Source: an uncultured Saprospiraceae bacterium
GTDB taxonomy: Bacteria; Bacteroidota; Bacteroidia; Chitinophagales; Saprospiraceae
Length of the DNA: 36,179 bases
Reading direction: 5' to 3'
NCBI GenBank assembly: GCA_947311465.1
Contig: CAMZLN010000066.1
Coordinates: 1-36,179 of the forward strand
Below the pieces are notes generated by a model. It was not told the origin of the DNA. It did no database searches and saw only the letters and a program-made list of their open reading frames with translations. The position numbers were made by a program, and so were the translations under genes. Each line of letters opens with the position of its first letter. Position 1 is the stretch's first letter. Positions 9,436 to 25,602 of this stretch are shown piece by piece.

Positions 9436-10005
9436 TTACACAATGATCACCAACAAACTTCGCGGCCCCTGCGCCCCAATGACCAAGCACTGTTCAATGT
9501 CCGCAGTCTTTGACGGTCCAGCTATAAATACCCCAAAATCAGAATCAGAATGAGTTTCTAGTCTTCGATAAGCATCATGCATATCCCCAACTATATTTCT
9601 TTTATCAAGGATTATCACCAAATGTTCTGCAATAAAAGGAATGACTCGATGGGGAAGATGTTGATTATCCACCCAAATCGCCCCGTTTTCAACCACACCA
9701 AATGCTCCCTGAACAATAGCTAAATCCAAAGGATGAATATCTCGTGGAGCAATGTTTTTAGTTTCAATTCCTTCAATGTCAATTTCAGGAATCGTATTTA
9801 CTATACGTTGATGATTTGAAAAATGAGTTTGAATTACTTCTTCAATAGATTGATTTTCTGCGATATGAACAACTGTAGCGGCACTGGTTTTTGATGCTTC
9901 AATGAAGCTCAATAATGAATCATTATTTCCAAAATTTGGAATTTTCGGAAGATCAATATTTTCAGGCTTATTTGATTTTATTCTATTAATTATTTGATTT
10001 TTCAT
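9436..10005 (-). CDS. lutC: Lactate utilization protein C (LUD domain)
   Basis: 189 aa LUD-type protein (IHPLDLAIVQGAFGVVENGAIWVDN...EHLVIILDKRNIV...FIAGPSKTADIEQCLVIGAQGPRSL). Confidence 0.88.
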   Translation of the reverse strand: MKNQIINRIKSNKPENIDLPKIPNFGNNDSLLSFIEASKTSAATVVHIAENQSIEEVIQTHFSNHQRIVNTIPEIDIEGIETKNIAPRDIHPLDLAIVQGAFGVVENGAIWVDNQHLPHRVIPFIAEHLVIILDKRNIVGDMHDAYRRLETHSDSDFGVFIAGPSKTADIEQCLVIGAQGPRSLLVIIV

Positions 10006-12158: not shown

Positions 12159-14402
12159 ATGTATAAATCCATTTTTTTGCTCCTATTTCTATTGAGTGTA
12201 CAATTTAGTTTTTCACAAGATAATGACAATGTTCCAATGCGTGTGATACACGCAACTGCTGTACCACAAGATGTCGCTGTTCAGAATATTTTCGTTGATG
12301 AAAATAATACTAAATGGGTTGCCAATTCAAAAGGAATTTATAGAATAAATTCAGTTGATAACGCTACCAAAAAAACATCTACGCCAGGTGAATGGTCCTT
12401 GCTTAGACAATATGGAGGGAATTCCAACTTGGTTATTCAAAAATATGAATTAGAAAAATTATCATCAGCCCAAAGCTTTGAAAAGGCTAAGGGTGAAGGA
12501 AAAATCACGACAACTTATTATGATGCTAAGAGAAAACATCTTTGGGTAGGAACAGATGACTCAGGGCTTTATAAATATAAAATTGGAAAGGAAGTTAAGT
12601 TATTAAAACGCTTTAATACATCAAATTCCGATTTAAAATCAAATCATATTAATTCTGTTGTGGTTGATAAATACAAAAGAGTTTGGGTAGGTACAGATAA
12701 AGGAGTTCTGTTTGGACGTGATGATCACTGGAAATTATATGAAGATGATTCAAAAATTTTATCAGTTTTACCTTTGGGTTTAGATGTTTGGATTTTAGGT
12801 CAAGAAATTCTTTGGAAAGTTGATGAAAATGGGCGTTGGTATCCAGGAGATATTGACCCAAAATTATCAAAGGGTACTATTAAAAGTATGACATTTGATA
12901 GTGATGCGAAATTATGGGTTGCTTCGGATATTATTACACGATATGATGTGGTTAAAAATAAAGTAGAACGTTTTGACCGATCAAATGGATTTATGGCAAA
13001 ACATATTAATTGTATAAAATTGGATAAGGATAATGCTCTATGGGTAGGTACTGACCAAGGTTTATTTCTAATTGATAAAGAATCTGCAATGACTGTCAGC
13101 TTGATGGTTAGCAAATCTCTAAGTTGTTCAGGATTTAAAGATGATGCTGCGCTACAAGTAAATATTATGGGTGGAGTTCCACCTTACGTGTACAAGTGGG
13201 ATAATGAATATATCGGAGCAAATCCTACCAATGTTGGTCCAGGCTATTACAAGGTTATGGTGACTGATTCATTGGGGCAAAAACGTGAAGTAAGTGCTGA
13301 AATTATAGACAACCGTCTTAAAGTACTAGTGGAAAAGGAAGGTAGAGAATCAAGCCCTAACGCACTTGACGGTACGGCCAAATTAAACATAGAAGGCGGT
13401 GAAAAACCATACAAAATTGCTTGGGATAATGGAGAGAAAAAAGAAAAGGCGAAGCGCCTTTCCGCAGGACAACATCAAGTTACTATTTCTGATGCTTCAG
13501 GTTGTTCAACCACGATGACCGTAAATATCGCTGGACAAGCGATTGCTGCAACAGCAACGAAATTGAATATATTAGTGGAACAAGGTAAAGCATTGAATTG
13601 TGCTGGAAAGAAAACAGCAAGTATTGATGTAATTGCTCAAGGAGGAAAGCCACCTTATAAATATGAATGGAGTCACGGATTAGAAGGAAAAAGCCCATCT
13701 GGAATTGGAAGTGGAACATATTCAGTAACCGTTACCGATGCCGCCAATCATAAAGCACTTGGCTCCGTTACGATTAATGCACCAAAATCACTTTCTGCTT
13801 TTGCGGTACAAACTAGTCCTGCAAGTAGAAGAAAAAGAAATGGTGTAGCATCCGTAACCGTTTATGGTGGAACTGCAGGTTATAAATATCTATGGGACAA
13901 TGGAGCTACTACAAAAGAAGCTAAAAAATTGACTAAAGGAAAACATTCTGTAACAGTTACAGACATGAATGGGTGTATTGCTGTAGCGAATGTCAATCTT
14001 TCTAAAAAAGAAGTTGCCGTTCTGGCTTTAAACTCTGGCAAATTGCGAAAAGGTCAAATTTATAGATTAGATAAGTTATATTTTCCAGCAGACAGTACAG
14101 ATATGACAGTAGAATCTTTGTCATCGATGGATGAATTATTGTCTTTTTTACATAAAAATTCAAAGGTTAAAATAGAAGTTGGTGGACATACCAATAATAT
14201 CCCTAAAGATGAATATTGTGATCGTTTGTCAACCGCTAGAGCGAAATCTGTTGCTAAATATTTGATTAGTAAAGGAATAGAAGGAAATAGAGTTTTCTAT
14301 AAAGGTTATGGTAAGCGTAAGCCAATTGCTTCTAATAATACATCTAGTGGTAGAGCAAAGAATCAACGTGTTGAAATTAAAATTTTGGAAACAGGGAATT
14401 AA
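12159..14402 (+). CDS. Two-component-regulator-propeller + SprB-repeat + OmpA C-terminal domain protein
   Basis: 747 aa. Propeller repeats (LWVGTDDSGLYKY, VWVGTDKGVLFG, LWVGTDQGLFLI); four SprB-like repeats (GG.PPY.Y.WDN...Y.VTVTD..GC); OmpA-like C-terminus (VKIEVGGHTNN...LSTARAKSVAKYLISKGI...NQRVEIKI). Confidence 0.85.
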   Translation: MYKSIFLLLFLLSVQFSFSQDNDNVPMRVIHATAVPQDVAVQNIFVDENNTKWVANSKGIYRINSVDNATKKTSTPGEWSLLRQYGGNSNLVIQKYELEKLSSAQSFEKAKGEGKITTTYYDAKRKHLWVGTDDSGLYKYKIGKEVKLLKRFNTSNSDLKSNHINSVVVDKYKRVWVGTDKGVLFGRDDHWKLYEDDSKILSVLPLGLDVWILGQEILWKVDENGRWYPGDIDPKLSKGTIKSMTFDSDAKLWVASDIITRYDVVKNKVERFDRSNGFMAKHINCIKLDKDNALWVGTDQGLFLIDKESAMTVSLMVSKSLSCSGFKDDAALQVNIMGGVPPYVYKWDNEYIGANPTNVGPGYYKVMVTDSLGQKREVSAEIIDNRLKVLVEKEGRESSPNALDGTAKLNIEGGEKPYKIAWDNGEKKEKAKRLSAGQHQVTISDASGCSTTMTVNIAGQAIAATATKLNILVEQGKALNCAGKKTASIDVIAQGGKPPYKYEWSHGLEGKSPSGIGSGTYSVTVTDAANHKALGSVTINAPKSLSAFAVQTSPASRRKRNGVASVTVYGGTAGYKYLWDNGATTKEAKKLTKGKHSVTVTDMNGCIAVANVNLSKKEVAVLALNSGKLRKGQIYRLDKLYFPADSTDMTVESLSSMDELLSFLHKNSKVKIEVGGHTNNIPKDEYCDRLSTARAKSVAKYLISKGIEGNRVFYKGYGKRKPIASNNTSSGRAKNQRVEIKILETGN

Positions 14403-21203: not shown

Positions 21204-22742
21204 TTATTGTTTTATAAATTTATGAATTTTGAATTTCCCATCTTTATGAATAAGTTTTAGAAAATAATTCCCAGTTAGTAATGAATTTACATTTATTGTT
21301 TCTTTTAATAAATCTTGTTTAACAATATTGCCTGTAATATTAATTATTTGGTACATGTAAAACGAATTGTTATTTATATTTAATGTATTGTGGCATGGAT
21401 TTGGAAAGATATTTTGATGACTCTCTAAATTTGCTAATTCTATGTCCAAAATATTTACTTCATCGCAATTGGATGAGATAAAACATCCATTTTCATCAAT
21501 TGATAATATCCAAATATCATAATGTTGTGTTAGAGTTGAATCCCAATAAGGAGATTCCCCAAGTAAAACAAAAGATCCATTTTGCCTTTCAACTATTTTA
21601 TTAAATATTGAATGTTTATATTTTCCACCTCTATTTGGTTCTGATTTTTCTCCTTCTCGTAGTTTATTTTTGTAAATTTTCAACCATTGTAGTTCGAGGG
21701 TAGTGTTAAAACAAAGGACAAATCCAGATAATTTCCAGTCTACTTTATCTTTTTCAAAAACATCCTGGACGGTACCTGATAGTACAATATTGCCTTTTTT
21801 TGTGATAATCATTTGATTTGCGATGTAAGTTCTACCTATTTGGGTGATATCAAGTGGAATATATAGTTTTGATAATAAGATAGAGTCTAATTGACTGTCA
21901 ACTTTTGTTATAGCTCCATAGTCAACATTATATCCGTCAATTTCGGATGGTTCTACATGAGATGTAAAATAATAATTCCCATTTTTGCCAATAATTTTTG
22001 ATGGTATAAAATCATCATTGATTCCACTAAACTTAAATAACCGCTTTTTTATTACTTCACCATCAGTATTATTAACTGAAATTAATGTTTGGGTTGGTCC
22101 ACTAACTGCACTATTTTGTACAACGAAAGAAATATTCTCACTATTTTTTGTTGATAAACCTACTAATCTAGGATGAAGTGCATTTTTGATACTATAGGTT
22201 TTTTCCCATTCTTTTTGGTTTGAGAGTTGATTTAGTTTTATTACGATACCTTTGATTTGTTTTGAAGGATAATAAACTCTAGTTCCATATAAATAATATT
22301 TTTTTTCAAAGACATAAATACCTTCGGGATTTAGCACTTCATTGTCTATGGATGCGAAAATAATTTCATCAATTGTTTCAAAATTTAAGGATAATACTTT
22401 TAAAACAAAATTCCTACCGTTATTGACTTTTTGGGTGCTAGAACCTACAAGTATGATGTTTTTGCCATCGTAAATTAATGGAGAGTCAAATCCCGGGAAA
22501 AAATTTTCAATTAATTTTGTATGAATAATATTACCATTATTATCAATTTTTGTTAATTGACATGCTCCTGATTCTAGATAAAGAATAGATGCGACAATAA
22601 AAAAATCATCAAAACTTATAATTGCACTAGACAAATTAATTGTTGCATTTTCTCCTAGTGGGTACAGCTTATTGAAATTGTTTTGAGAATAACAATAAGT
22701 TGTACCTAGAAGTAATGAAATAAATAAGATAATTTTATTCAT
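21204..22742 (-). CDS. Secreted protein with T9SS type A C-terminal sorting domain
   Basis: 512 aa; signal peptide MNKIILFISLLLGTTYCYSQ; C-terminus NIFPNPCHNTLNINNN...ITGNIVKQDLL...LLTGNYFLKLIHKDGKFKIHKFIKQ. Confidence 0.85.
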   Translation of the reverse strand: MNKIILFISLLLGTTYCYSQNNFNKLYPLGENATINLSSAIISFDDFFIVASILYLESGACQLTKIDNNGNIIHTKLIENFFPGFDSPLIYDGKNIILVGSSTQKVNNGRNFVLKVLSLNFETIDEIIFASIDNEVLNPEGIYVFEKKYYLYGTRVYYPSKQIKGIVIKLNQLSNQKEWEKTYSIKNALHPRLVGLSTKNSENISFVVQNSAVSGPTQTLISVNNTDGEVIKKRLFKFSGINDDFIPSKIIGKNGNYYFTSHVEPSEIDGYNVDYGAITKVDSQLDSILLSKLYIPLDITQIGRTYIANQMIITKKGNIVLSGTVQDVFEKDKVDWKLSGFVLCFNTTLELQWLKIYKNKLREGEKSEPNRGGKYKHSIFNKIVERQNGSFVLLGESPYWDSTLTQHYDIWILSIDENGCFISSNCDEVNILDIELANLESHQNIFPNPCHNTLNINNNSFYMYQIINITGNIVKQDLLKETINVNSLLTGNYFLKLIHKDGKFKIHKFIKQ

Positions 22743-22765: not shown

Positions 22766-25525
22766 TTATTCGATTAATATTTTCTTTGAATAAATATTTG
22801 TTTTGTCTTTTATAATATGAATGTAATATACACCTTGTTTGAATTGAGTTGCATTGATTTTTAAAACATTCTGAGAGCTTTTTTGTTGTAAAATTTTGTT
22901 ACCAAAAGAATCAGTTATTGTTATTTCGATTGTGTTTGCATCATTAAATTTAATGGTAAAGTAGTTATTCGCAGGGTTAGGAAATATTTTTGGATTGCCT
23001 ATTTTAGAAATTGAAGTAAACTTGAAATTGTCATCAACTTCATCACCATCTTTTGGCTCAAGTAATATTTTTGTTAATGAATAATATAGGGAAAGTGCTA
23101 TCCCAGAATTTTCATTAGACTTTAATGCAATTGATTGTATTTCGTTTAATTCTGCCAGAGTAGGAGTGAACAGTACTTTATTATTTAGTCGTTTTAAGTT
23201 GATTTTTTGTAAAGTGACAAACTCTTTGTTCTCTATTGTTGCTAGATATTTTTTTGCTTCAACTAAATCTCCTTCTAATAGATATGTACTGTAAATCAAT
23301 AATTGATTATTGCCATTAGATTTAATTAGTTTACGTACTTTAGTAAAATTACCAGCTTTGATTTCTGCAGTTACTATTTTTTGAAATGAAAACTCATCAT
23401 TAGGTGGAGCTACAATATAGTCACAAGGATTAGATGGGTCATTAAAGTATGAAAACTTTCTTGTAACATTAGGTGTACTTAATATTGCATCTTTACAATC
23501 AGTATCCCTATCATCCGGTTCCCAATATTCAAAATTGTTTGGATATCCTGAAATTGAAGTAACACTTGAATTGGTATTACCAGTATGCGTAAAACAATTA
23601 TTTACTGGCCTCATTCCAGGCTTGATTTGTATTGGATTTACATTTCCATGTATTCGAATATCGGATTTTGTTGTATTGAAGCAATTATCTCTGAAGATTA
23701 GTCCGCCATTATTATTCCATAAACGGATTCCATATTTTGTATTGGAGAATCTGTTATTTTGAATAAAATTTGAACCGAATCCATTTGCTACATTAAATAT
23801 GCCATAATATCCTTCAAATTTATTATCTGTTATTGTGTAATTATTTTCGCCTCTAATTTCAATATTTTTAAAGGAATAATTGAACTTATTGTTTTCGATA
23901 TTGTGTTTTCCAATTGATAAGGCACTTGAGAATATATTTCTATTTGTTGAATAAAATATATTGTCATATATGTTGGAAGGAAGAACAGCATGTGTACTTG
24001 TTAGCATTATGTCCTTAGATCCTCCATGGAACTCATTATTTCCTATTAAACTGAAATCAGCATCTTCTCCAATGATGCATCTGTCTTGGATATTAAAAAA
24101 CTTACAGCCAATAACATGTAAGTCACTACAATTCCAATTTGTAATTCCCCATTTCCCGCCATATTGGGTACAATTGACTATTGTACTTTTGTTAATTCTT
24201 GGTTGATAGGCAATAAACTCAGCCAATCTATTACAATTTCTAAAAATAGTATTTTGTGCATCTAATTTTCCATTCCCATAATTAGTTTTTTCAGGCCATG
24301 GAAGAGCTGGAAACATAGAGACTGCAGCATTATTAGTATTTTCTATTGTTGCATCTATAAATTTTACATCATAAAAATTAAATGCAGGATCAAAATTTCC
24401 ACCAGTAACTTTAATACCTGACCATTTGTTGCAATTAGAAGTAATTTTTCCTCCATTTACTATTAATTTTGCATTTTTATGGACTATTATTTTTTTATTA
24501 GGTGCCATAATACATGTACCGTATACATTAAATGTTGCACCAGGCATAATTTCGACATCATGGTGAAAAATTTCTGTTGAATATATTGCATAGGAATTTT
24601 CAAATTTCGAATCCCAAAGTTCTTTTCTTGCTGTTTTTAAAAAATAATACATTCTTTTCGCTTGTCCTTCTGTAAATTCTGTAGCACAAGCATGAAAATA
24701 TCCCATGTAATTTTCTTCTGGATATAACCAATTCCAATTGCTATTACAATTTTCACAATTTGAATTTTTATCCTTTTCAAGACAGTCATATTCTATCAAT
24801 GGTCTTATGCAAGGTGGTGTATCGCAAACAAAATCACCATTTTTACAACATTCTGATTCTGTTAACCCATTTTGGTGACAATGATTTCCATTACATTCAT
24901 CATCATCATCATCTTCTCCCCATATATGATATAAACCTAAATAGTGCCCAAGTTCATGAGTTAATGTTTTTAAATAATAAGGTGCACTTCCAAATTCTGA
25001 TGTTGAACCGAATGCCCAATACGAAATTGTAATTCCATCTAGTATACTTGTAGTTGGAGGGAGTACTGCACTACCACCCTGACCTAAAGGACCGTTTTTA
25101 ATAATCCATATATTTAAATATTTTTTCTTATCCCATGATGTTGTAGTATGTAAATTCCATTTATGTCCTGGAGGATTGGTATCAGTATATTGAGAATAAA
25201 TTCTTTCAATTCCAGAAGTGCAATTTCCATCTGGATCAATATTTGCGAGAACTAATTTTATCTTTGTATTATATCCTCCATAAAGACCTTTTAAGTGATC
25301 ATTTGTTTCTTTAATTGCAGCGTGTACTTGTGCATCTGGTATATTTTCGGGACCATTCAGATGAATTATATGAACTATTGTTGGAATAACGTATTGGGAT
25401 GTTTCTGCGTCAGTTTTTTCTTCACATTTTGTAGTATTGTTAAGATTAGAAGAATTGTAATTTTGATTGTATTCAAATCCACATTGAAATTGGGCAAATA
25501 GATATAAGGGCATGATGCTTAACAT
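22766..25525 (-). CDS. M43-type (pappalysin-like) zinc metalloprotease with beta-helix region and T9SS type A sorting domain; N-terminus possibly frameshifted
   Basis: 919 aa; HELGHYLGLYH (HExxHxxGxxH), Asn-rich right-handed beta-helix-like stretch, C-terminus IFPNPANNYFTIKF...QFKQGVYYIHIIKDKTNIYSKKILIE. A likely start at 25565 is out of frame (see findings). Confidence 0.85.
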   Translation of the reverse strand: MLSIMPLYLFAQFQCGFEYNQNYNSSNLNNTTKCEEKTDAETSQYVIPTIVHIIHLNGPENIPDAQVHAAIKETNDHLKGLYGGYNTKIKLVLANIDPDGNCTSGIERIYSQYTDTNPPGHKWNLHTTTSWDKKKYLNIWIIKNGPLGQGGSAVLPPTTSILDGITISYWAFGSTSEFGSAPYYLKTLTHELGHYLGLYHIWGEDDDDDECNGNHCHQNGLTESECCKNGDFVCDTPPCIRPLIEYDCLEKDKNSNCENCNSNWNWLYPEENYMGYFHACATEFTEGQAKRMYYFLKTARKELWDSKFENSYAIYSTEIFHHDVEIMPGATFNVYGTCIMAPNKKIIVHKNAKLIVNGGKITSNCNKWSGIKVTGGNFDPAFNFYDVKFIDATIENTNNAAVSMFPALPWPEKTNYGNGKLDAQNTIFRNCNRLAEFIAYQPRINKSTIVNCTQYGGKWGITNWNCSDLHVIGCKFFNIQDRCIIGEDADFSLIGNNEFHGGSKDIMLTSTHAVLPSNIYDNIFYSTNRNIFSSALSIGKHNIENNKFNYSFKNIEIRGENNYTITDNKFEGYYGIFNVANGFGSNFIQNNRFSNTKYGIRLWNNNGGLIFRDNCFNTTKSDIRIHGNVNPIQIKPGMRPVNNCFTHTGNTNSSVTSISGYPNNFEYWEPDDRDTDCKDAILSTPNVTRKFSYFNDPSNPCDYIVAPPNDEFSFQKIVTAEIKAGNFTKVRKLIKSNGNNQLLIYSTYLLEGDLVEAKKYLATIENKEFVTLQKINLKRLNNKVLFTPTLAELNEIQSIALKSNENSGIALSLYYSLTKILLEPKDGDEVDDNFKFTSISKIGNPKIFPNPANNYFTIKFNDANTIEITITDSFGNKILQQKSSQNVLKINATQFKQGVYYIHIIKDKTNIYSKKILIE

Positions 25526-25594
25526 TAATAATACCCCCCGAAATTATTTTTTTTCGTAAAAACATGATTTAAAAATTTTGTTTGATTAATGATG

Positions 25595-25602
25595 CAAATA
25601 TA
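25595..25602 (-). promoter_or_regulatory. Predicted -7 element TATATTTG for the metalloprotease gene
   Basis: Reverse strand TATATTTG matches TAnnTTTG. No clear TTG -33 element. Confidence 0.35.

Follow-up and report, generated by a model that had tools for sequence, protein, structure and literature searches.

We found that the leader of a metalloprotease gene in an uncultured Saprospiraceae bacterium is thrown out of frame by a run of six guanines within its signal peptide, and this run is probably the switch of a phase-variable contingency locus that was assembled in its OFF state. The gene lies in the window, the stretch of 36,179 nucleotides that we analysed, which is the entire contig C66 of a draft genome (3.04 Mb, 339 contigs, 83.5% complete). 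Its product belongs to the M43 (PAPP-A) peptidases, as both the PF05572 profile and the HExxHxxGxxH zinc motif are present, and the Pfam search of the protein returned M43, NosD and a T9SS tail, and no outer-membrane protein family (Table 1). With less assurance, we also favor the broader view that Saprospirales-like Bacteroidota of the environment possess a combinatorial repertoire of the opa type, in which modular T9SS proteases and other enzymes are built on a shared beta-helix, each has a separate leader repeat (unit of 1 to 11 bases) that seems to have arisen independently, and each cell shows a different surface subset.

Table 1. Features of the metalloprotease gene and its surroundings in the window.
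Feature	Position	Strand	Basis
Putative -7 promoter element TATATTTG, perfect match to TAnnTTTG	25595..25602	-	sequence against Bacteroidota consensus
ATG, putative true start, n-region MFLRKK	25563..25565	-	sequence and tract-length table
OFF-state frame: 30-aa peptide MFLRKKIISGGIINVKHHALISICPISMWI and stop codon	25473..25565	-	tract-length table
A8 run; frame not restored by one-base changes	25547..25554	-	tract-length table
G6 tract at the signal peptide's n/h boundary; 5 or 8 Gs keep the frame, 6 lose it (OFF)	25534..25539	-	sequence and tract-length table
Called ORF, 919 aa, internal Met start, without charged n-region	22766..25525	-	ORF list
Peptidase M43 domain, zinc motif HELGHYLGLYH	24638..25141	-	Pfam PF05572, E 3e-14
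Conserved right-handed beta-helix (NosD-like), which defines the clan	23579..24580	-	PF05048, alignment A1, family search
T9SS C-terminal sorting domain (Por_Secre_tail)	22772..22987	-	PF18962, E 9.9e-12, over curated cut-off
Gene that follows 23 bases downstream; also T9SS cargo, signal peptide intact, may share a transcript with the protease gene	21204..22742	-	ORF list and Pfam

On the minus strand the leader reads, 5′ to 3′, ATGTTTTTACG-A8-TAATTTC-G6-TATTATTAATG, and the called ORF starts at the last ATG. The tract and its frame status are established by a table of tract lengths: read from ATG 25565, the assembled A8G6 arrangement ends after 30 codons, and A8G5 and A8G8 give MFLRKKIISG(G)VLLMLSIMPLYLFAQFQ, which is a normal signal peptide and continues into the complete protein. 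Among the lengths tabulated only G5 or G8 recovers both the reading frame and the Sec signal peptide, which is missing in the assembled frame, and the frame of an otherwise intact gene toggles with tract length. When G6 is kept, A7, A9 and A10 each reach a stop within 13 codons. Upstream of Met 25525 the called frame runs for 6 codons (FRGVLL) to a stop, giving a 925-aa open frame, and the leader that begins at this Met is short and has no K/R n-region. The initial annotation had already claimed the loss of the ATG 25565 frame at G6, its recovery with one G fewer, the failure of a one-base change in A8 to rescue it and the lack of a charged n-region in the called ORF, and all four points are borne out. 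Its wording of a “-1 shift” is right for the DNA, where one base must be lost (or two gained), and wrong for the ribosome, which a -1 slip leads into the wrong frame and which would have to slip by +1 or -2.

The restored leader is predicted to be a standard Bacteroidota signal peptide, like those that most T9SS-tailed genes of the genome have. A PF18962 search gave 114 T9SS-tail matches in that genome; 98 T9SS-tailed genes were taken, 4 of them cut by a contig end, and a simple filter recognized an in-frame standard signal peptide in 80 of the 94 left. Two further beta-helix/T9SS genes of the genome, on contigs C195 and C29, show a G7 in the corresponding n/h position; neither is in frame as assembled, and 5 or 8 Gs would put each of them in frame. 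The signal-peptide G tracts of this assembly are thus out of frame in 3 of 3 cases. The C195 and C29 genes encode paralogous proteins of 1337 and 1370 aa with the clan beta-helix and T9SS tail, and the long N-terminal domain of each has no Pfam match and differs from other clan N-termini. A standard restored leader, together with an equally placed G tract in two further genes of the genome and in other genera, is in our judgement an arrangement beyond chance.

Does the same arrangement recur in related bacteria? The nearest homologues in other genera share the beta-helix, and most of them the T9SS tail, while the N-terminal domain varies (M43, other HExxH proteins, a subtilase in G007:C104 with PF00082, and others). 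With the A1 beta-helix profile, clan members are recovered from 137 of the 395 genomes in the taxonomic family, and the clan is also present in other families of the same order; a contig search with the window protein as query found no relative. The leaders of these homologues contain a G7 (G001:C114), the 8-mer AAACCGAC ×4.1 (G009:C55), the 11-mer CGCATGCAAGT ×3 (G009:C331) and TTTC ×7.8 (G009:C247), all OFF, and the 8-mer GTCAAACC ×11.8, which is in frame (ON; G009:C56). The initial annotation had raised a start at the shorter Met in homologues as the competing reading; where this could be checked they do not start there, and have full or repeat-disrupted signal peptides instead. In three homologues (G009:C207, L201; G007:C57, L202; G007:C104, L203) the leader is broken and contains no long repeat, consistent with decay or short-tract slips.

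We then picked 80 clan members by beta-helix score alone, blind to repeats, and applied strict repeat criteria to a leader window of -60 to +170 around the start of the open frame. Leader repeats were present in 36 of the 80, in 18.2 kb in total, whereas the gene bodies of the same members held 22 repeats in 226.3 kb (21 of the 22 homopolymers), a density about 20 times lower. With the first 11 members added, the earlier-found relatives outside the repeat-blind set, a leader repeat occurs in 44 of 91 same-family relatives and a strict one is absent from the other 47. The types range over G6-11, C8-16, dinucleotides and 4-, 5-, 8- and 11-mers, for example GAGCGTTTACC ×10.6 in G185, ACCAACGC ×9.5 in G273, TCAGTGCC ×11.8 in G277:C7, CACAT ×16.8 in G416, CTAC ×10 in G140, CT ×17 in G128, G10 in G075, G157 and G300, G11 in G217 and C16 in G210. 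The 24 multi-base leader repeats among the 91 have units of 2, 4, 5, 8 or 11 bases, never a multiple of 3 (0/24). Recurrence, position bias and unit-length bias are thus established in the clan. A tally by ATG and by the frame around the repeat gave 6 ON, 30 OFF and 8 that are ambiguous or at a contig end; an OFF to ON ratio of 30:6 exceeds the random-third expectation, and some members may be dead genes. As a control, M43 proteins outside the clan had a leader repeat in 2 of 27 cases against 26 of 60 in the clan (Fisher p = 0.001). A family-wide blind scan for a G6 with hydrophobic codons after it returned largely unrelated matches, with no clear excess over a reversed control, and therefore the G-tract signal peptide is a trait of the clan and not a general feature.

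Copy-number differences between related genes are likewise established; they were seen from gene to gene and from species to species, and not among cells. Two paralogues of one genome that are 68% identical (G277:C7 and C12) have different octamers at the same site, in 11.8 copies (OFF) and 6.5 copies (ON), and two homologues that are 61% identical (G300:C164 and G217:C119) have G10 and G11. We rejected L363 as evidence of movement: at 92% identity its octamer number is only 2, as opposed to 11.8, but it lies at the end of a contig and the DNA upstream of it is unrelated. In a trio of clan members 91-93% identical (G310:C51, L315; G333:C1, L316; G363:C3, L317) one is open to the start and in two the open frame begins about 240 codons in; the frame lesions of G310 and G333 fall within the gene, at sites that lack a strict repeat, and were left out of the counts.

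From these sequences we infer slippage in living cells, its reversibility, an effect on secretion and a biological role. Slipped-strand mispairing during replication would add or remove Gs one at a time. With 3n+2 of them (5 or 8) MFLRKKIISG(G)VLLMLSIMPLYLFAQ, equally MFLRKKIISG(G)VLLMLSIMPLYLFAQFQCG running into the gene, would be in frame, and the protease/beta-helix protein would be exported by Sec, then by T9SS, and reach the surface or the medium; at other lengths translation would end after about 13-30 codons. The clan consists of modular T9SS cargo, with a variable and often protease-like N-terminus on a conserved beta-helix and T9SS tail, and since the repeat differs from gene to gene each member could switch independently, so that the population displays a changing subset. 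The window has the non-triplet repeat of a simple-sequence-repeat contingency locus, its G6 lying in the 5′ coding region. However, about G8 or more goes with frequent slippage, a supportive and not strictly defining criterion, and the tract is G6 in the window, G7 in the paralogues of its own genome and G8-G11 in relatives. Because G6 is short, the window copy may be slow-switching or locked OFF. The phase-variable secretion that the initial annotation put forward is well supported for the gene clan by the recurrent leader repeats, and the short G6 counts against it at the window locus.

What else could have left this leader out of frame? A one-off inactivating slip, by which a gene now dying out lost its signal peptide recently and does not switch back and forth at this locus, is unlikely, although an OFF copy in decay may be what the window holds. 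The recent slip suggested earlier gains from the shortness of G6, from the closest homologue (G009:C207), whose leader has an in-frame TAG and no repeat, and from the majority of OFF over ON members. Set against these are the remaining 919 codons, which are intact, and the avoidance of multiples of 3 by the repeat units; moreover, the two other G-tract leaders of the same genome and the dozens of leaders with repeats in relatives would have to be coincidence.

A sequencing or assembly indel, with G5 as the real tract and constitutive secretion of the product, is in our view quite improbable. In its favor stand the draft state of the genome (339 contigs, 83.5% complete) and the poly-G runs of 18 or more at the ends of contigs C161, C191 and C303, which are probably sequencing artefact, not biology. 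In the same assembly, however, all 31 internal coding G/C6-8 tracts lie in intact ORFs and 0 of 31 has an internal frameshift; therefore general miscalling of such tracts is unsupported as a source of the indel that the initial annotation had listed, and the 4-, 5-, 8- and 11-base repeats of relatives are not prone to errors of such kind. A single miscall at the C66 tract is still conceivable.

A still smaller chance attaches to translation from Met 25525, as called, or Met 25513, with a short hydrophobic leader sufficing for export. Both ATGs are in frame, but neither start provides a charged n-region, only 11-12 residues precede the expected AQ cleavage site, and most T9SS cargo of the same genome has a longer leader with K or R. 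The charged n-region is found instead at ATG 25565, together with TATATTTG at 25602-25595, which fits TAnnTTTG, the Bacteroidota -7 element consensus; this putative element would place the transcript start just 5′ of that ATG. Programmed frameshifting, also proposed earlier, or RNA-polymerase slippage on the G run, yielding some in-frame product from the G6 gene, is hardly credible: homopolymers can cause transcript slippage and a low level is possible, but repeat unit and length vary by gene, the 4-, 8- and 11-mers of relatives are unrelated and share no slippery site, six members simply read in frame, and an ordinary -1 ribosomal slip enters the wrong frame.

Phase variation by slippage at the G6 tract, the reading we prefer, has its closest parallel in Neisseria opa, where CTCTT/CTTCT pentamers in the signal-sequence coding region set the frame of each of several loci (PMC13183285, PMC5953494). 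As in opa, the repeat lies in or beside the signal peptide, a genome encodes many paralogous surface proteins and each of them has a repeat of its own, slippage would change the frame, and several copies are OFF at once. Unlike opa, the clan belongs to another phylum and consists of protease/beta-helix T9SS cargo instead of an outer-membrane protein, exported by another route; its repeat unit varies by gene (1, 2, 4, 5, 8 or 11 bases) where opa has one shared pentamer, and its switching is a prediction. A homopolymer G tract inside the coding sequence as ON/OFF frame switch is also found in Neisseria pilC and other poly-G loci, but the known tracts are G9 or longer, typically 9-10, as against G6 in the window (PMC5953494). 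By analogy, then, the window gene would work like opa, and is neither an opa gene nor an Opa family member.

Phase variation in Bacteroidota is usually attributed to DNA inversion, as at the capsule promoters of Bacteroides. The clan would share with these systems of the same phylum a stochastic switching of surface components, but they depend on invertases and promoter inversion, whereas coding simple repeats need no recombinase. In its Sec signal peptide, M43 domain and Por_Secre_tail the window protein resembles T9SS-secreted M43 and other Bacteroidota metalloproteases, and differs from ordinary T9SS M43 proteases, whose leaders are stable, in the beta-helix and repeat-bearing leader that the clan adds. 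Frame-switching repeats are known mainly from host-adapted pathogens. A literature search, with many subscription papers outside its coverage, returned nothing that describes phase variation by repeats for T9SS cargo or within Saprospiraceae, and a passage in PMC4060949, citing earlier work, reports that genomes with long simple repeats tend to belong to organisms dependent on a eukaryotic host. If real, secreted proteases switched by repeats in uncultured Bacteroidota of the environment would be a new setting for contingency loci and would account for some “truncated” secreted proteins in metagenome annotations. They also raise the question “Which pressure, whether phage, predator, host, competitor or prey, selects T9SS-cargo switching?”

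Three other loci of simple repeats in the same genome as the window deserve mention. On the minus strand of C15 (452-487; L233) an intergenic CTTA ×9 adjoins a terminator-like inverted repeat. A T9SS gene on the plus strand of C241 (8876-9100; L178) has an A8 directly after its ATG, and A7 would bring MKKILIYSFLLFSFSLFA into frame; a TAA also lies inside the gene. Finally, a plus-strand gene of C255 (G000, L175) that ends at 12251 has CTTA ×8.8 in its signal peptide, at about 9862-9897, and is out of frame. Its product is T9SS-tailed, contains HEIGH and is outside the beta-helix clan, and judging from this gene switching may extend beyond the clan.
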